From the NCBI GenBank assembly GCA_019359325.1, contig JAHHHN010000012.1, positions 69,995-133,994 on the forward strand: a DNA stretch of 64,000 nt, given 5' to 3'. The stretch is from Mojavia pulchra JT2-VF2 (GTDB lineage: Bacteria; Cyanobacteriota; Cyanobacteriia; Cyanobacteriales; Nostocaceae). Positions 43,673-53,738 of the stretch are shown piece by piece; position 1 is the stretch's first letter; each line of letters opens with the position of its first letter. The position numbers and the translations under genes were made by a program. The notes under the pieces were generated by a model, which had not been told where the DNA came from, did not search any database, and saw only the letters and a program-made list of their open reading frames with translations.

Positions 43673-44199
43673 CTCTGTTTTATCACTCTTGTCAAAGTAT
43701 AATTGAAGGCGATCGCAAAACTGAGAAAAAGACTATGGTTGAGCCTTGTCCACCCGCGCCCATAGTCCAATTTGTGGATAAGGGCTGCCAGCTGTATCAA
43801 AACCTCTTTCCAAAAGTTAGAAGCTCTGACACTCTCTAACATATTATTTTAACACTTCCATACTTGATAAAATTTAAGTTTTGAATAATACAAAATTTAT
43901 ACGTAAATTTTGGGTTGCAGATAAATAAAATGCTTTATCTACGACTAAATTGAGCTTTTATTCTAAATGTGTAGGGTATATTGGGCACTAATAGATACTA
44001 GCTACGTCAACTATCTTAATTTACTGAAATTGCTGAATTTGCTCCAGGTTCTCTGAGGACAAATTTTGATCCAGGGATGCGCGACTACCAATTAACTAAT
44101 TCTTTAGTAAGCATAAATGCTTGTAGACTATATGACTAGTGGACTTCATCACAAAGCAAGCAATGGCGCATGTGGGTAGTTAACGCATCATTCAAACCT
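43673..44199. other. Gap with one doubtful short ORF
   Basis: A 34-codon frame (43735-43839, MVEPCPPAPIVQFVDKGCQL) begins with ATG after a purine-rich region. It has two Cys and could be a small peptide, but I found no leader similarity to the two precursors, so it is not annotated as a gene. The rest is AT-rich. Confidence 0.4.
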
Positions 44200-45423
44200 A
44201 TGAAATTGATTTTTCTAATTCCAGGTTGGCGACATAGACGCGGAGTGAGTTTTCGTCAGGCGTGGCTCAAACGCTTTTTCCCGATACTTGTTTTAATATC
44301 GTGCGTGACGGCATTACTGGTAGGTAACTTCACCCCTGCGATCGCCCAGCTACCCCGTGAAGAAATTCGCGGGGTTTGGATGACCAACAACGATATCGAT
44401 ATTCTCAAGGAACGAGCCAAAGTGCAGGATGCCGTGAGCCAACTGCGGCGGATGAACTTTAATACTATTTATCCCGTAATATGGAATTCTGGCTATGTGA
44501 TGTATCCCAGCGCCGTAGCAAAAAGTAGAGGTATCCAACCCTTTGTTTTGCGAGGAACCGATGGACATGATATCCTTGCAGACTTAATTAACCAAGCCCA
44601 TCGCCAAGGCTTACTCGTGATTCCCTGGTTTGAGTTTGGTTTTATGGCTCCGCCAACCTCAGAACTGGTATTGAATCATCCAAATTGGTTTACGCAAAAG
44701 CGGGATGGTAGCCAAACTTCTATTAGTGCTGCGGGTGAGGTTATGTGGCTCAATCCCTTTCATCCACAAGTGCAGCAGTTTATCACTGATCTCGTGTTAG
44801 AAAACGTCACCCAGTATGATGCTGATGGCATTCAGTTTGACGATCACATGAGTTTACCCCACGAATTTGGCTACGATCCATACACAGTGGCACTGTACAC
44901 TCAAGAAACTAAGAATAATCCCCCAAGCAATCCTCAAGATCCAGCATGGGTAAAATGGCGGGCAGATAAAATCACAGCGTTCATGGTAAAACTCAACCAA
45001 GCTGTCAAAGCCAGAAAACCCAAAGCAATTTTTTCTGTTTCCCCCAATTACTACGACTTTGCTTACAAGTTTCAACTACAAGACTGGCTTACCTGGATAC
45101 GATTGAATATTGTAGACGAGTTAATTGTGCAAATTTATCGTCCCAATCTTCAAAATTTTATTGCCAATCTTTCCCGAACAGAAATTCGAGAAGCGCAGCA
45201 AGTGATTCCAACCGGAGTTGGAATTATGGCAGGATTGCGAAATAAGCCAGTCCCAATGCGGCAAATTCATTCACAAGTGCGGGCTGCTCAAGAACGCGGC
45301 TTGGGTGTAGCCTTCTTCTACTACGAAAGTTTGTGGGAATCTGCCCCAGAAGAAGTTGCAGAAAGACAGGCTGGACTTCAATCTTTATTCCGCTCTCCCG
45401 CACTTCGCGCCAGGATTGAATAA
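44200..45423 (+). CDS. Family 10-like glycosylhydrolase (GHL10/DUF187)
   Basis: About 407 residues. A basic start and membrane/signal segment (FFPILVLISCVTALLVG) ends with AIAQ, so the enzyme is exported. The mature protein is a TIM barrel with EEIRGVWMTNNDIDIL, then MNFNTIYPVIWNSGYVMYPS and QFDDHMSLPHEFGYDPYT. The Asp-Asp of IQFDDHMS and a Glu near PWFEFGF occupy the typical active-site positions. Family members (YngK-like) are predicted to act on cell-wall or extracellular polysaccharide. I chose the ATG at MKLIFLIPG rather than the upstream one, because it begins the signal sequence. Confidence 0.88.
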   Translation: MKLIFLIPGWRHRRGVSFRQAWLKRFFPILVLISCVTALLVGNFTPAIAQLPREEIRGVWMTNNDIDILKERAKVQDAVSQLRRMNFNTIYPVIWNSGYVMYPSAVAKSRGIQPFVLRGTDGHDILADLINQAHRQGLLVIPWFEFGFMAPPTSELVLNHPNWFTQKRDGSQTSISAAGEVMWLNPFHPQVQQFITDLVLENVTQYDADGIQFDDHMSLPHEFGYDPYTVALYTQETKNNPPSNPQDPAWVKWRADKITAFMVKLNQAVKARKPKAIFSVSPNYYDFAYKFQLQDWLTWIRLNIVDELIVQIYRPNLQNFIANLSRTEIREAQQVIPTGVGIMAGLRNKPVPMRQIHSQVRAAQERGLGVAFFYYESLWESAPEEVAERQAGLQSLFRSPALRARIE

Positions 45424-46701: not shown

Positions 46702-47559
46702 ATGAGTACACAAGAAATGAATGTAACCACATTTGAACTATTGGATATTTCTCATGAAATTAACTCAATTAATGCAGAAATTATCAACAAGTTAGCTTTA
46801 CAAAGCAAAAATATAAATAAAATTTCTTTGGATAGATTGGTTCAGCAAAAAGCCAAGCTAATAGAGGCTGAAAGAAGCCAAGTAGCTCCTATAGCTCAAA
46901 AAGTTATCAATCGGATGCAGCTAAAAATGCAAGAAATAGATGAACTACTATCTACAAGAAAGGAGCAAGGTAAAATCACCTGTGACGGTTATATCCGCTA
47001 TTTAATTCAAGCTTGGTATTGTAGTAGCCATACCCCTGATTTTCAAGTTTTATTTCATCAACGTATAGCTGAATATACGAAAAGTTTTTCTGAGGAAAAA
47101 TTAAAACGCGGAAGCAAATTTGTTCACACAATGGAATCCGAGGCTGATGAGGAGATAGGACACGAAGTCTTGGCATTAAGGGATTTACAAAAATTAGGTG
47201 TTCAGATATTTAATAAAATTAATGACGTTTTCGATGAATCAAAAAGCTTAATTAATTCACAAAATAAACTGTTAAATCAAAGTAACTTCATAGGCTTTTT
47301 AGGATACTCATCCTACATGGAGTTTTTGTTTGCTAAACATATTGGTTATCAACTAGAACTTTTGAGCGAAGCAGGAATTAATAGAGAAGCTCAAACCTTT
47401 TTATACAATCACTATGTTATTGATTTAAGTCATGCTGGGCATGACATAGATTTACTTAACTTTTTCGTTGACAATGAGGAAATTTTAAATATAATAAATG
47501 AGAATATTGATGTTGTCCACTCGTTTTATAAAGGCATTATAGCCAGAGCTTTTAACTAA
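46702..47559 (+). CDS. Heme-oxygenase-like diiron oxidase family protein
   Basis: 285-residue all-helical protein of the heme-oxygenase-like (iron-containing redox enzyme, HDO) superfamily. The metal-binding helix is DEEIGHEVLALRDLQKLG (E151, H154, possible D161). A later helix has HYVIDLSHAGHDIDLL with H244, H247 and D250 suited to a second iron. Members cleave or oxidise amino-acid or fatty-acid-derived substrates in natural-product pathways. The gene begins a same-strand run with four biosynthetic genes, with an AAAGGA site before the ATG. It is 468 bases from the ScyA-like gene, so it may have its own promoter or share the operon. The reaction is unknown. Confidence 0.75.
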   Translation: MSTQEMNVTTFELLDISHEINSINAEIINKLALQSKNINKISLDRLVQQKAKLIEAERSQVAPIAQKVINRMQLKMQEIDELLSTRKEQGKITCDGYIRYLIQAWYCSSHTPDFQVLFHQRIAEYTKSFSEEKLKRGSKFVHTMESEADEEIGHEVLALRDLQKLGVQIFNKINDVFDESKSLINSQNKLLNQSNFIGFLGYSSYMEFLFAKHIGYQLELLSEAGINREAQTFLYNHYVIDLSHAGHDIDLLNFFVDNEEILNIINENIDVVHSFYKGIIARAFN

Positions 47560-48027
47560 TCAGAGCTTTAGCTATCAACCTCGTCAAGTTTAGGAAACAA
47601 AATCGATATGCTAAATCATGAAAAATGATATTGCAAGTATTTTTCTCCCTAATATCCTTATAAACGAACTTTGGCTACCTCCTTAATTATTTATAAAAAT
47701 TTCCAGAAAACTAAGTTTTTTCATGCATGAATAGCTACTTTGGTACTGCTACTTAAAGGCTCACATCTAGAACCAAGCCCATGCAGTTATAAATTGCACG
47801 GCAGTAGTTTTGTGCAGACATAAATTATCAAAACTTAACATCAATATCTTAGACTTCGTGTTTGTTGGATAACGGTTTCGTGCTGCTTTTAAAATACCTA
47901 ATCGTCAGAATCAATCTGCCAACTATTAGCGATCGCTGCAACAAACTAGTGCCAATTTGCACTCATTTCTAAAACACGACATATCTGCTTTTGTATGTCT
48001 TCATGTAATAACTTTTTCTAATCATCT
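47560..48027. other. Gap between HDO-like gene and ScyA-like gene
   Basis: No convincing ORF, no repeat family member and no terminator hairpin that I can recognise. Its length leaves open whether the upstream gene is co-transcribed with the rest of the cluster. Confidence 0.45.
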
Positions 48028-49875
48028 ATGAACGAAAATAAAGTTTCATCGAACTTGCTTGTGCAATCCCCGTTTTACAACAAATTGGCAATGAAGTTAA
48101 TGGAATCGAGGCTAACTAACGCTAAACTCAATGATGATTACCTCAGACATGAAAAGCACGCAGACATCAAGTCATCCCCATCGCTCTTACTCTCAGATGC
48201 AATTGTCAAGTTACTAGAAGATTTAGGAGTTAAATACGCCTTTGGTGTTTCTGGCGGCGCGATGGCAAAGCTTTGGGGTTCACTCTCAAACAGCCAGATC
48301 CAAGTACTTCACTTTCGCCACGAAGTCGGAGCAGCCTTTGCAGCAGCAGAAGCATCTTTGGCTAGCGATCGCCCTGTTGTCATCTTCACCACAGCAGGCC
48401 CAGGTATTACCAACGCCTTGACCGGGATTTTAGCAGCGCGTGGTGAGGGAGCAAAGGTGATTCTCCTATCCGCTTCTACTTCAGCATTACAGCATGGACG
48501 GTATGCGATCCAAGAAACTCATGAGCAGACAATACCTGGAGGAATTTTTACCTCAGGAGCGCTGTTCCATTATGCAACAACTCTTGAGTGCGCCGAACAA
48601 CTGCCACAAGCTGCTCGCAGAATTGCTCTTGGCTTAACAAGACCAAACGGCTTTGTGGCTCATTTGAGTATTCCGACAAACTTGCAGTCGAGTTTGATAC
48701 ATGAATCTTTACCTCAAGTAGATTTATCTTTGGCGCAAAATATTCCTAGCAAAGACACAATTGCCAAATGCATACATCTACTATCTGAAGGTAACTTTGC
48801 GATCTGGGTTGGTTTTGGTGCAAGATCCGCAGCCGAAGAGATCCGCCAACTGGCTGAAAGAACCGGAGCCGCAGTCATGTGTTCACCTCGTGGCAAAGGT
48901 ATTTTCCCTGAAAATCATCCTCAGTTTGTGGGCGTTACAGGTTTGGGGGGTCATGCTTCAGTATTTACATATATGCAAAAGCATTCTCCTCAACGCATAT
49001 TAGTCTTAGGAACCCGCCTTGGGGAACCGACTTCTTTCTGGAGCAGCCAAATGATTCCCCAAGCTGGATTTGTTCATGTTGATGTTGATCCAGATATTCT
49101 AGGGGTTGCCTATCCATCCGTGCCAACTTTTCCTGTTCTATGTGAAGTGAAAACTTTTGTGGAGTCACTGCTGCAATACTGGCCAGACAATTTTGCAGAA
49201 TCAAAATTAGTAACCCTACCTCATCCTGAAGCTGAAATAATTCAACCAAGCAACAATGAACTAGTACGCCCTGAAGTCTTAATGCAGCAGATTCAGCAGG
49301 TGTGCGTTGAAAACAGCGATGCAATTATTATGGCAGAATCGGGTAATTCGTTTACTTGGGCAACCCACCTCCTACGATTTGCCCTACCTAAGCGTTATCG
49401 AGTCAGTACTGCAATTGGAGCTATGGGTCATGCAGCTACGGGAGTTGTTGGTGCTGCTAAAGCTCATGGCAAAGCGATCGCCATTGTTGGCGATGGTGCA
49501 ATGTTGATGAACAACGAAATCAGCACAGCAGTGAAATACAAGATTCCTGCCGTCTGGATTGTCCTCAATGATGCCCGATACAATATGTGTTTCCAGGGAA
49601 TGGCAATGCTAGGGCTTGAGGCAGATGCAACCATTCCCCGCACAGATTTTGTGATGATTGCTCGCGGTATGGGGGCTGATGGTATTCGCGTCGAAACTGA
49701 ATCTGATATTCGCAAAGCCTTAGAACAAGCACTGGCAGCCTCTACCCCATTTGTGATTGATGTAATGATCGACCCAACTCGGCAAGCACCATCTCGCGGA
49801 CGTAATCAAGGTTTACTTGCCCAAGGAGTTGCAGATAGTCCAAACAAAGAAATTTCATTTCCCTTGCTAAAGTAA
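48028..49875 (+). CDS. scyA: ScyA-like ThDP-dependent acyloin synthase
   Basis: 615 residues of the acetolactate-synthase/ScyA group of ThDP enzymes. ScyA of the scytonemin pathway couples two aromatic 2-oxo acids (indole-3-pyruvate and p-hydroxyphenylpyruvate) to a beta-ketoacid, losing CO2. Key residues are present: Glu99 in HFRHEVGAAFAAAEA, the Mg-ThDP motif GDGAMLMNNE (488 onward) and NDARYN. The first ~50 residues form an extension with no recognised domain. The neighbours (ScyB-like dehydrogenase, ScyC-like cyclase) support this assignment over housekeeping acetolactate synthase. The true substrates may differ, because scyD-F are absent here. An internal ATG at 48091 could also be the start. 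Confidence 0.8.
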   Translation: MNENKVSSNLLVQSPFYNKLAMKLMESRLTNAKLNDDYLRHEKHADIKSSPSLLLSDAIVKLLEDLGVKYAFGVSGGAMAKLWGSLSNSQIQVLHFRHEVGAAFAAAEASLASDRPVVIFTTAGPGITNALTGILAARGEGAKVILLSASTSALQHGRYAIQETHEQTIPGGIFTSGALFHYATTLECAEQLPQAARRIALGLTRPNGFVAHLSIPTNLQSSLIHESLPQVDLSLAQNIPSKDTIAKCIHLLSEGNFAIWVGFGARSAAEEIRQLAERTGAAVMCSPRGKGIFPENHPQFVGVTGLGGHASVFTYMQKHSPQRILVLGTRLGEPTSFWSSQMIPQAGFVHVDVDPDILGVAYPSVPTFPVLCEVKTFVESLLQYWPDNFAESKLVTLPHPEAEIIQPSNNELVRPEVLMQQIQQVCVENSDAIIMAESGNSFTWATHLLRFALPKRYRVSTAIGAMGHAATGVVGAAKAHGKAIAIVGDGAMLMNNEISTAVKYKIPAVWIVLNDARYNMCFQGMAMLGLEADATIPRTDFVMIARGMGADGIRVETESDIRKALEQALAASTPFVIDVMIDPTRQAPSRGRNQGLLAQGVADSPNKEISFPLLK

Positions 49876-49883
49876 CCATTTTT

Positions 49884-50234
49884 AGCGTTGCTGATTAATG
49901 GGATGAATTTTGTTTCGCGCATAGACACGGAGTGGTGAGGCAGTGCGTTGGTGAGGCAGCGACGGGTACGCAGGGGGTTTCCCCCATGAGCGAGAAAGGG
50001 TTAAGCGACTTGAAGCAACTGCCGCTCGCGTAGCGTATCCGTAGGATTCACCCGAAGGGCTTCCCGCAGGGTAGGCGCAAAGACGCAAAGAATTTATGTC
50101 GAAATTCAAAATTCAATATCTCAACCTCTTCGTCTCTGCGCCTCCGTGTCCACTGAAGTTTGCTCAACGGCGTGAACCCCCGCACCGCAACTTCTCTGTG
50201 CGTAAGGCTATTCATACTTTCACTCAGCAACGCC
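49884..50234. mobile_element. MITE family 2, copy C, inserted between ScyA-like and ScyB-like genes
   Basis: About 351 bp beginning AGCGTTGCTGATTAATGGGA and ending CACTCAGCAACGCC. The terminal inverted repeat is the same as in copies A and B. The interior contains further repeat segments (CACGGAGTGGTGAGGC and ACGCAGGGGGTTTCCC). Flanks CCATTTTT and CATATTTT are similar but not identical. Removing it leaves about 33 bp between the two genes. An ORF on the minus strand in it is a by-product. Confidence 0.82.
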
Positions 50235-50259
50235 CATATTTTTATTTCATAGAAAATTT

Positions 50260-51312
50260 ATGAAGTTTTTTGAAAGTCTTAAAGCAATGGGTCACGAGCA
50301 AGTTCTCTTTTGTCATGACCATGAAACCAATCTCAAAGCAATTATTGCCCTTCATGATACCAGTTTGGGATTAGCTATGGGGGCGACTCGCCTATTGCCT
50401 TATGTAAGTGAAGAAGCAGCTTTGCAAGACGTTCTCCGTCTGAGTCGCAGTATGACCTACAAAGCCGCCTGTGCCAATATTCCTGTTGGAGGTGCAAAAG
50501 CAGTTATTATTGCTCATCCTGAAGATAAAACCGATGCCATGCTCAAATCTTATGCACGGTTTGTCGAAAGTCTTAAAGGACGATTTGTTACAGGACAAGA
50601 TGTAAATTTTTCGCCTGAAGATGTGCGAAAAATACGCCAACAAACTAGTTACGTTGTCGGAATTGCAGAAACAGGAGGTGGGCCAACATTAGCAACAGCG
50701 ATCGGTGTGACTTTAGCCATAAAAGCGGCAGCAGAGTATCGTTGGCAAAGGCAAAATCTCGATGGACTGAGAGTAGCAGTTCAAGGATTAGGAAATGTTG
50801 GCAAACATCTCTGTGATTTTCTCTATCAAAATGGGGTCAAACTTTTTGTCAGCGATTTAAATAGAGAAAAATTAGAAGAAGTTGCAGAACTTTATAAAGC
50901 AACCATTGTAGAACCTCAAGAAATTTACTCATTGGATGTTGATGTATTTTCTCCTTGTGCTTTAGGTGGAATTCTGAATAGCTCAACTATTCCCCAAATT
51001 CAAGCTCCTGTAATTGCTGGTGCTGCCAATAATCAACTGGAAGATGAAGATTTACACAGCCAGATGCTTGAATCTAGAAATATTCTTTATTGTCCAGATT
51101 ATGTAATTAATGCTGGTGGCTTAATCAACGTTTACAACGAAATGATTGGCTATGATGACGTGAAAGCTTTCAGCCATGTCCATAAAATTTATGATACCCT
51201 TCTGGAGATTTTTCATAAAGCTGATTTTGAAGGAATCACCACATATATGGCATCTAAACTTTTAGGAGAAGAGCGCATTCAAAAGCAAAAAACCAACAGC
51301 ATTTATCACTAA
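50260..51312 (+). CDS. scyB: ScyB-like leucine/phenylalanine dehydrogenase homologue
   Basis: 350-residue NAD-dependent amino-acid dehydrogenase. In scytonemin biosynthesis ScyB oxidatively deaminates tryptophan to indole-3-pyruvate, the ScyA substrate. Catalytic Lys68 (SMTYKAACANI) and Lys80 (VGGAKAVI) with Asp114 fit the Glu/Leu/Phe dehydrogenase family, and GLGNVG at 176-181 is the nucleotide site. The amino-acid specificity cannot be read from the sequence alone; a hydrophobic side chain is likely. The ATG is 25 bases after a MITE, and I see no obvious ribosome site, so expression may be affected. Confidence 0.8.
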   Translation: MKFFESLKAMGHEQVLFCHDHETNLKAIIALHDTSLGLAMGATRLLPYVSEEAALQDVLRLSRSMTYKAACANIPVGGAKAVIIAHPEDKTDAMLKSYARFVESLKGRFVTGQDVNFSPEDVRKIRQQTSYVVGIAETGGGPTLATAIGVTLAIKAAAEYRWQRQNLDGLRVAVQGLGNVGKHLCDFLYQNGVKLFVSDLNREKLEEVAELYKATIVEPQEIYSLDVDVFSPCALGGILNSSTIPQIQAPVIAGAANNQLEDEDLHSQMLESRNILYCPDYVINAGGLINVYNEMIGYDDVKAFSHVHKIYDTLLEIFHKADFEGITTYMASKLLGEERIQKQKTNSIYH

Positions 51313-51347
51313 ATTAGTTAAACATCAAAACTTCAAGGTATTGAGCA

Positions 51348-52319
51348 ATGGAAAATAATACGTTTGTTACATCCGCCTATATTGCAACTTCACCGGATAC
51401 AGCTTTTAATTACTTGTGCCGTTTAGAAACTCTCAACGAGTGGACTATTAATTGCCGAATGTTAGAGAAGGTAGATGATAATACTTGGATAGGGTCTTGT
51501 GCTGGCTATCAGAGAAATCTTTATTATCATCTTAAAAAGATAGAAAATCCACTATTTTTAGGCATTGAGTGGTACTGTGGATTTTCTCCTGATAACTATT
51601 TTCATTGGTATCCCGTTCTGCTGTTTCCTCCAAGCTACTTGGAGCCGGAATCAAATGAAAAAGGAGTTTACTTTCATTGGATTAGCTTTATAGATCCAAA
51701 ACGGCGGACTCCGATGATTATGCAGGGAATTAAAACAGTACATCTTTGCGAAAGCCGTTCTCTTAAAGCTATTCTGGAGCGCAACGAGGGACTTACAGAA
51801 GCGGCTGAAGGGCAATATACAGTTGATAGTGACACAATTTATGTTGATGCTCCTATTGAATTAGCCGTTGAATATTTGGAAGACTTACGGAATATTGGAA
51901 ATTGGTCACATTTGTTGCGATCGCAGGGCGAAGTTGCTCACCAATCGGGTGAATTCTTAGATGAATATAACCAAACAGTAAAAATCACATTCCGAACTCA
52001 TAAACTCAACAATTATTATCTCATCGAGCAGGATTACTTCTATCCTGATTACCAATTCCTGCAACGCTGCCCTACCGTACTTATACCCTGTTCATGCGCT
52101 TTCAACGATCCGTCTGCTCGTGGATTTATTCTCCACCGCATCGCTTTTTGGAAAGGTGGCAAAGCACCCCGTCACGGCAAACTTCAAATGGAAGATTACG
52201 GAGCAGAAAATATGAGCATTAAACGCTTGCTAGAAGCTAAAGCTGGTAATCTTGAAACCTTCGCTCGTGGAATGAGCTATCTTCCACAAGTTGCTGTTGA
52301 TAGTTGCAATATAAACTAA
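51348..52319 (+). CDS. scyC: ScyC-like cyclase/decarboxylase (START-type fold)
   Basis: 323 residues, close in length to ScyC, which cyclises and decarboxylates the ScyA product to a tricyclic ketone in the scytonemin pathway. The protein looks like two SRPBCC/START-like halves: residues ~1-155 (VTSAYIATSPDTAFNYLCRL, GSCAGYQRNLYYHLKKI) and ~160-300 (DTIYVDAPIELAVEYLEDLR). The second half repeats the DAPIELAVEYL motif style of the first. It is 35 bases after the ScyB-like gene and preceded by AAGG. No cofactor site is visible, as expected for an acid/base-type cyclase. Confidence 0.82.
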   Translation: MENNTFVTSAYIATSPDTAFNYLCRLETLNEWTINCRMLEKVDDNTWIGSCAGYQRNLYYHLKKIENPLFLGIEWYCGFSPDNYFHWYPVLLFPPSYLEPESNEKGVYFHWISFIDPKRRTPMIMQGIKTVHLCESRSLKAILERNEGLTEAAEGQYTVDSDTIYVDAPIELAVEYLEDLRNIGNWSHLLRSQGEVAHQSGEFLDEYNQTVKITFRTHKLNNYYLIEQDYFYPDYQFLQRCPTVLIPCSCAFNDPSARGFILHRIAFWKGGKAPRHGKLQMEDYGAENMSIKRLLEAKAGNLETFARGMSYLPQVAVDSCNIN

Positions 52320-52337
52320 TTTGAGGCGTGTTAAATA

Positions 52338-53738
52338 ATGGTATTAGTAGCAGGTAATCTTTATTTAGAAAAAAACTTTGCCCCTGTAGAGTTGGAAATA
52401 ACAGCAGATAATCTCTCAGTAATTGGAGAAATACCTCCTGAACTTAACGGGATGTTAATTCGTAACGGCCCTAATCCCTTATTTCCATCTCCAGCTTGGT
52501 ATCACTGGTTTGATGGGCACGGTATGTTACACGGTGTCCAGATTAGCAATGGCAAAGCCAAGTATCATAACCGCTACATCCAAACACAGGGGTGGAAAAC
52601 TGAAAAAGATGCTGGACGTGCAATTTGGTCAGGTTTTTTAACACCACCTCAGCCAGAAAGTCCTAATGCTCCTCCGATTAATACTGCTAATACAGCCGTT
52701 GTTTGGCACGCCAATCGCTTGTTGGCTCTTTGGGAAGGCGGAGAACCTTACCAAATCCAAGTACCTGAACTCACAACAGTCGGTTCTTATACTTATGGGG
52801 GTGAGTTGCAAAGCGCTTTCACTGCTCATCCCAAAGTCGATTGTGCCACTGGCGAAATGATGTTTTTTGGCTACTCTTGGGTAAATTTACCTCACTTGCA
52901 ATACAGCGTTGTTTCCCCGCAAGGCAAGCTGTTGCGGACAGTACCAATTGACTTACCAGTGGGGGTGATGATGCACGATTTTGCCATCACCGCCAACTAC
53001 ACAATCTTTATGAATCTGCCCTTGACATTCCGTTTGGAACGCGCACAACAGGGAAAACCACCTTTACTTTTTGAAAAAGATATTCCTAGTCGCTTTGGTA
53101 TTCTGCCACGTCATGGAGATAATAGCAGCATTCGCTGGTTTGAAGCACCTGCGTGTTATGTCGCTCATACTCTCAATGCTTATGAGGACGGAGATGAAGT
53201 AGTACTTATCGCTTGTCGAATGCCAACTACCACTATGCTTGGTCTTGCAGGAAGACCACAAGATAATCACAGTGATATTTCCTTTCTATATAAGTGGCGG
53301 TTCAACCTGAAGACAGGTGCGGTAATTGAAGAACCTTTAGATGATATTCCTTCAGAATTTCCGCGTGTGAACGACCAACAACTGGGACACAAGACTAGAT
53401 ACGGTTACAGTTCACGAATGATACCTAATTCCGTACCTCTGTTCGATGGCGTAATTAAGTATGATTTTGCTAATGGTAGCTCTCAAACTCATGTATTAGG
53501 AAAAGGACGTTATGGCGGTGAGGGGGTGTTTGTACCTCGACCAAATGCAATTGATGAGGATGACGGTTGGCTGCTAACTTTTGTCTACGATGAAGTGGCG
53601 AACATTTCGGAACTGCTTGTATTAAATGCTAAAGACATCACGGCTGAACCTGTCGCTCGCATCATGATTCCCCAACGTGTTCCTTACGGGTTCCACGGTA
53701 CTTGGATTGATCAGACAAATTTTGCAAGTTCTGTCTGA
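52338..53738 (+). CDS. Carotenoid-cleavage-type dioxygenase (RPE65/CCD superfamily)
   Basis: 466-residue non-heme iron oxygenase with a seven-bladed propeller. The four iron-binding His are all present: His164 (FTAHPKVD), His213 (MMHDFAIT), His277 (VAHTLNAYED) and His453 (GFHGTWI). The start MVLVAGNLYLEKNFAPVELE and the sequence IRNGPNPLFPSP are canonical. It is 18 bases after the ScyC-like gene and so certainly in the same operon. Usual substrates are carotenoids or apocarotenoids, but some members cleave stilbene-type double bonds. In this context the product of the neighbouring enzymes could be the substrate. The length is normal, so the gene looks intact. Confidence 0.92.
   Translation: MVLVAGNLYLEKNFAPVELEITADNLSVIGEIPPELNGMLIRNGPNPLFPSPAWYHWFDGHGMLHGVQISNGKAKYHNRYIQTQGWKTEKDAGRAIWSGFLTPPQPESPNAPPINTANTAVVWHANRLLALWEGGEPYQIQVPELTTVGSYTYGGELQSAFTAHPKVDCATGEMMFFGYSWVNLPHLQYSVVSPQGKLLRTVPIDLPVGVMMHDFAITANYTIFMNLPLTFRLERAQQGKPPLLFEKDIPSRFGILPRHGDNSSIRWFEAPACYVAHTLNAYEDGDEVVLIACRMPTTTMLGLAGRPQDNHSDISFLYKWRFNLKTGAVIEEPLDDIPSEFPRVNDQQLGHKTRYGYSSRMIPNSVPLFDGVIKYDFANGSSQTHVLGKGRYGGEGVFVPRPNAIDEDDGWLLTFVYDEVANISELLVLNAKDITAEPVARIMIPQRVPYGFHGTWIDQTNFASSV

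Follow-up and report, generated by a model that had tools for sequence, protein, structure and literature searches.

In Nostoc punctiforme, ScyA and ScyC, enzymes of the sunscreen pigment scytonemin, carry out the acyloin coupling of indole-3-pyruvate with p-hydroxyphenylpyruvate, followed by cyclisation with decarboxylation (PMC4870267). A survey treats ScyC as single-copy in each genome and as the strictest marker of the capacity to make scytonemin (PMC9796282). The furanolide pathways (cyanobacterin, cyb; maculalactone, mac) also combine a ScyA-family TPP enzyme, an aromatic acyloin and an elaborating partner, the partner in this case being the KASIII-like furanolide synthase CybF, used together with acyl-CoA (PMC13288894, PMC12395478). 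In the cyb system CybE is the TPP enzyme and CybF a 3-oxoacyl-ACP synthase (PMC8777810). In carquinostatin/neocarazostatin biosynthesis, ThDP-dependent coupling of indole-3-pyruvate by CqsB3 is followed by the action of CqsB2, a cyclase of the Bet v1/ARO-CYC fold (PMC7466098).

Gene content of the cassette

The window (the whole 64-kb stretch of DNA that was analysed) carries between positions 46702 and 53738 five intact open reading frames, all on the forward strand, encoding in order a haem-oxygenase-like dimetal oxidase/oxygenase (HDO) candidate, homologues of ScyA, ScyB and ScyC, and a dioxygenase of the carotenoid cleavage dioxygenase (CCD)/RPE65 type (Table 1). An earlier note on this DNA had described five same-direction genes in this order, and both the reading frames and the Pfam and NCBIfam profiles agreed with that description. 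The nearest gene upstream encodes a GHL10 glycosyl hydrolase and ends at 45423.

Table 1. Coordinates of the cassette genes and of the scyA-scyB spacer in the window, with the evidence for each assignment.
Feature	Position	Strand	Product or description	Evidence
HDO-like	46702..47559	+	285 aa, haem-oxygenase-like dimetal oxidase/oxygenase candidate	PF14518, ligand residues, 3dde profile match
ScyA-like ThDP enzyme	48028..49875	+	615 aa, predicted aromatic alpha-keto-acid acyloin synthase	NCBIfam, identity to C19 copy, tree
scyA-scyB spacer	49876..50259	+	dispersed repeats, present elsewhere in window too	blastn
ScyB-like tryptophan dehydrogenase	50260..51312	+	350 aa, optional member, predicted indole-3-pyruvate supply	NF035922
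ScyC-like cyclase/decarboxylase	51348..52319	+	323 aa, two SRPBCC (Bet v1/ARO-CYC) domains	NF035924, AF2 model, Foldseek
CCD/RPE65-family non-haem iron dioxygenase	52338..53738	+	466 aa, F-to-A276 beside third iron His	PF03055, four His, clade-specific changes

The cassette resembles the scyABCDEF cluster of N. punctiforme in having ScyA, ScyB and ScyC in the relative order A-B-C (PMC4870267, PMC2726228), but differs from it in the absence of scyDEF, tyrA, aroB and dsbA, in the addition of the HDO and the CCD, in a dispensable ScyB and in belonging to a separate deep clade. As the earlier note had said of the scytonemin partners, tblastn searches for scyD-F, tyrA, aroB and dsbA gave no match anywhere in the 64-kb window, nor did they at the three other cassette loci described below, and at none of the four loci did scyDEF and the aromatic precursor genes adjoin the cassette. 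Compared with the furanolide pathways, the place of the elaborating partner is taken here by ScyC, and neither a KASIII nor a CoA ligase was found in the cassette, which does not have the CybE/CybF pairing. The carquinostatin/neocarazostatin pathways differ in drawing on other sequence families, in their KASIII step and ACP substrate, and in having no CCD or HDO. Among the papers searched, none names both ScyC and a carotenoid cleavage dioxygenase.

Distribution and relation to the scytonemin enzymes

Among 218 Nostocaceae genomes searched for the close HDO family, the cassette was found in four, in all of which the HDO gene directly precedes ScyA and is followed by ScyC and, last, the CCD; a scan of GTDB contigs for the same family recovered two of these four loci. 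As the close HDO family always lies directly upstream of ScyA in these genomes, with the CCD last, the clustering is not due to chance. The window genome and a genome of another genus, G729, have the complete set of five genes, identically ordered (the ScyB of G729 is 78% identical to that of the window), and the order proposed by the earlier note thus recurs. The cassettes of Cylindrospermum sp. FACHB-282 (L027/L103) and Amazonocrinis nigriterrae CENA67 (L028) consist of HDO, ScyA, ScyC and CCD without ScyB, and the only match to ScyB found in the Cylindrospermum genome was a glutamate-dehydrogenase-like one at 35%. Of the ScyABC core that the earlier note had envisaged, ScyA and ScyC were therefore constant and ScyB was not; judged by gene content, the core is ScyA with ScyC, and ScyB appears dispensable.

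The cassette genes are intact, their order is common to four genera at 67-88% identity, and catalytic and metal-ligand residues are kept. When all open reading frames of the four loci were compared, the common genes were those of the cassette, apart from GHL10 and a weak ABC-ATPase match, and homology essentially ended at the cassette boundaries. The rarity of the cassette would suit a degraded or silent relic, or unrelated genes brought together by chance, but this preservation of order and residues between unrelated flanks makes such an explanation hardly credible. The GHL10 gene was seen near the cassette in two genomes (window, 44170-45423; Cylindrospermum L103, 235-1458; 80% identical), on opposite sides of the cassette in the two. 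No ScyC was found in plasmids, and no relative of the HDO in plasmids or viral contigs.

On contig C19 of the window genome lies a complete canonical cluster of scyA, B, C, D, E and F with prephenate dehydrogenase (tyrA), DsbA and 3-dehydroquinate synthase (aroB), its scy genes preceded by a histidine kinase and an AraC-type response regulator; the earlier note had suggested looking for such a second cluster. The window ScyA and ScyC are 67% and 63% identical to the C19 copies. Against the scytonemin equivalog models, the window ScyB (NF035922, 609.8 bits, cut-off 600) and ScyC (NF035924, 586.6, cut-off 400) passed and ScyA failed, so that the three did not pass as a set. The best model for the window ScyA was indeed ScyA, but its score of 1002.7 fell below the ScyA cut-off of 1020 and its score of 936 below the ScyA-related cut-off of 1000; the ScyA of the Cylindrospermum cassette was likewise below both (1004.3 and 933), while the canonical C19 ScyA scored 1111.8 with the ScyA model. 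The closest relative of ScyA in the PDB was the ThDP enzyme BbmA.

Phylogenetic analysis placed the cassette enzymes outside the Nostocaceae scytonemin group, in trees built without an outgroup and with the root not fixed. In a ScyC tree of 54 sequences, including the four cassette proteins and 48 of scytonemin type, the cassette ScyC formed a clade with 100/100 support on a stem of 0.40, separated from the 48 by a branch with 90/83 support, and the cassette also formed its own clade in the ScyA tree (support 100). The cassette clade has fixed residues of its own at fourteen positions of ScyC and at five of ScyA. AU tests rejected joining the cassette to the Nostocaceae scytonemin enzymes both for ScyC (p=4.75e-5) and for concatenated ScyA, ScyB and ScyC (p=4.6e-5), though for ScyA (p=0.07) and ScyB (p=0.057) alone this grouping was not rejected at 5%. 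Grouping the concatenated enzymes with the genome's own C19 copy was also rejected (p=1.4e-5), and with it a recent duplication of the resident scytonemin cluster. Of the two findings that the earlier note had named as speaking against its reading, a place inside the scytonemin clade and the lack of any other scy cluster in the genome, neither was obtained. Because the two cassettes without ScyB are sisters in the ScyA tree (Cylindrospermum and Amazonocrinis, support 99), one loss of ScyB would be the simplest history. A late insertion of ScyB in the window genome was considered, and dropped once a second five-gene cassette had been found and the ScyB-less pair had proved to be sisters.

Across the 391 genomes of the order that were sampled, ScyC was present in 52, and in two copies only in the window genome; Amazonocrinis also has two ScyC, the second of them inside a canonical cluster. 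No second ScyC was found in the Cylindrospermum FACHB-282 genome, and since neither ScyB nor another ScyC was found there, its cassette apparently works without a scytonemin pathway. A second, old lineage of ScyC type occurs beside scytonemin genes in the window genome and Amazonocrinis and by itself in Cylindrospermum FACHB-282. Finding ScyC in a genome therefore does not prove scytonemin. The cassette might instead be a redundant second supply of scytonemin monomer to the normal pathway, as the presence of ScyA, ScyB and ScyC, and the passing scores of the last two, would allow; the Cylindrospermum cassette, the lack of scyDEF near any of the four cassettes, the deep separate clade and the two extra oxygenases make this very unlikely. 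The canonical cluster on C19, the deep clade and the gene order in another genus give good support to the proposal of the earlier note that the cassette would encode a pathway distinct from that of scytonemin. Gene content and order, the separate origin, the metal-ligand residues, the altered CCD site and the dispensability of ScyB are all read from sequence.

Further ScyA/ScyC loci outside the scytonemin clade were seen at L105 (3323-6065, G265), which has ScyA-ScyC and no ScyB within the 14-kb locus, and at L104 (1527-5624, G327), which has an unusual gene order; these are possibly more scytonemin-like pathways.

The HDO, ScyC and CCD enzymes

The window HDO matched PF14518 (iron-containing redox enzyme) with 38.6 bits, above the gathering threshold of 28.9, as did the HDO of two other cassettes (L027 and L028). 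Candidate 3H/3C ligands are H154, H237 and H244 with E/D147 or E151, E207 and D241, assigned from the alignment and from the ligand spacing of CADD and UndA rather than from a structure, and these positions are kept in five homologues, namely those of the four cassettes and one 35% identical homologue. Such a 3H/3C ligand set is typical of the HDO superfamily (PMC13108848), and the protein is a candidate dimetal (diiron) oxidase/oxygenase. It shares the PF14518 fold family and the 3H/3C pattern with the superfamily members UndA, CADD, AetD and BesC, but differs in having no close characterised relative; in the PDB the only match found was 3dde (profile match, E=2e-4), itself of unassigned function. 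The AF2 model (pLDDT 42, three-sequence alignment) was too poor to confirm the fold. The 35% identical homologue, at L161 280-2916 of a 2.4-Mb cyanobacterial genome (G614), adjoins genes for an SCP2-like protein and a DevBCA-looking exporter; no Scy genes were seen there, so the HDO family exists in another context as well.

The AF2 model of ScyC (pLDDT 89) consists of two tandem SRPBCC units. Among its best Foldseek matches are StfQ and BexL, both di-domain ARO/CYC proteins, and CqsB2, a carbazole cyclase; the whole-chain TM-scores are low, as expected if domain orientations differ.

The CCD matched PF03055 (RPE65) with 505 bits over the full profile and has all four iron His reported by the earlier note (H164, H213, H277 and H453), as is proper to the CCD/RPE65 superfamily; its closest solved relatives are the plant-type carotenoid 9,10-dioxygenases. 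An ordinary CCD copy, 67% identical, lies on contig C3 of the same genome, and the family was found in 63 of 80 Nostocaceae genomes searched. The cassette CCD derives by duplication from an ordinary carotenoid-type CCD of this NSC1-like family. At fourteen positions all four cassettes share a fixed residue that differs from that of 28 ordinary cyanobacterial homologues (L012, a wrong ORF, was left out of this comparison). These changes include D61H in the FDGDGM motif, which is invariant otherwise, and the F-to-A276 change directly before the third iron His. In the alignment A276 apparently corresponds to Ser-283 of LSD4, where NOV1 has Ser and LsdA Gly. Other lignostilbene dioxygenases carry Ala or Gly at this position, and a Phe there presumably occludes the distal ring site (PMC8191317).

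The cassette CCD thus shares with the lignostilbene dioxygenases LsdA, LSD4 and NOV1 the superfamily, the four-His iron and a small residue beside the third iron His, but their phenol-binding Tyr-101 and Lys-134 positions are F/I100 and W132 in the cassette, and overall it is nearer to the carotenoid CCDs; it was therefore rejected as a lignostilbene dioxygenase. Given the altered active site, cleavage of an aromatic alkene is plausible. The CCD could still be a carotenoid or apocarotenoid enzyme, with the aromatic product conjugated to or made beside an apocarotenal, or with a separate function in the operon, and its nearest solved relatives and NSC1-like origin point that way; its retention beside ScyC in every cassette, the replacements at positions 276, 61 and others in all four, and the ordinary copy still kept on C3 argue against it, and we consider it quite improbable.

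The predicted pathway and other ScyA-family loci

We infer that the cassette makes an aromatic compound related to scytonemin and very probably different from it. In the reading that we find the most likely, and quite possible although we would stop short of calling it probable, the cassette is an ancient paralogue operon of the ScyABC core. The HDO would oxidise its tricyclic product, which the CCD would then cleave at an aryl C=C bond. By analogy with its characterised homologues, ScyA would couple two aromatic alpha-keto acids, probably indole-3-pyruvate and p-hydroxyphenylpyruvate, to a beta-keto-acid acyloin. ScyB, where present, would supply the indole-3-pyruvate; in cassettes without ScyB the keto acids would have to come from aminotransferases. 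ScyC, again by homology, would cyclise and decarboxylate the acyloin to a tricyclic ketone of the cyclopenta[b]indolone type. What follows is our proposal as to the order of steps, the reaction of the HDO, the cleavage and the final product: rather than being exported and dimerised to scytonemin, the ketone would be oxidised by the diiron HDO, for example from benzyl to benzylidene, and the CCD-type dioxygenase would use O2 to cleave the resulting aryl-conjugated C=C, giving a truncated ketone or dione with an aromatic aldehyde, or a nostodione-like monomer.

Nostodione A has been obtained from scytonemin by ozonolysis and isolated from Nostoc and Scytonema (PMC2726228), so compounds with this scaffold in oxidatively cleaved form exist in nature; their link to the cassette, possibly the enzymatic origin of nostodione-type monomers, is hypothetical. 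We hold it possible but somewhat doubtful that the CCD has moved from carotenoid metabolism to the biosynthesis of an indole/phenol alkaloid, in which it would cleave an aryl alkene built by ScyA, ScyC and the diiron HDO to give a new cyanobacterial aromatic scaffold. Against HDO oxidation followed by CCD cleavage stand the missing phenol-binding Tyr and Lys of the CCD and its closeness to solved carotenoid 9,10-dioxygenases.

The HDO may also act on Trp or Tyr and not on the tricycle, because most of the HDOs that have been characterised have fatty or amino acids as substrates (PMC13108848), as the cyanobacterial AetD has tryptophan (PMC11611611). The same separate pathway would then begin with the HDO acting on tryptophan, tyrosine or the keto acid, ScyA and ScyC would therefore build on a modified precursor, and the CCD would modify the product by a different reaction. 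In all four cassettes the HDO gene stands first, as this order would have it, but its sequence is not closely linked to that of any characterised amino-acid HDO, and we regard the alternative as rather unlikely. The cassette would show that the ScyA/ScyC pair can be reused as a module for C-C bond formation and cyclisation, joined here to two iron enzymes predicted to use O2. The operon is small enough for reconstitution in E. coli, in which scyABC have already been expressed (PMC4870267).

Other ScyA relatives were observed in these genomes. On contig C18 of Cylindrospermum FACHB-282 (L128 3628-9932), genes for an aromatic amino acid lyase, an AMP-ligase and a ScyA-related enzyme and a KASIII-looking gene stand in a row, which by gene content resembles the core of a furanolide cluster (CybB, C, E, F); the ScyA-related match has one TAA inside the matched stretch, yet a 610-aa open reading frame is read there. 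The window genome, outside the cassette, has two pairs of a ScyA-related TPP enzyme gene with a KASIII-like gene, on contigs C28 (L111 8456-11390) and C69 (L112 7904-10922), in an arrangement like that of CybE/CybF, and their ScyA relatives pass the ScyA-related model (1034 and 1043, cut-off 1000). The G729 cassette is flanked by genes for hisG-like, response-regulator and 349-aa proteins (L164 3681-13183) that resemble those around the C28 pair (L111 888-13158), as if ScyA-family cassettes swapped at one site.
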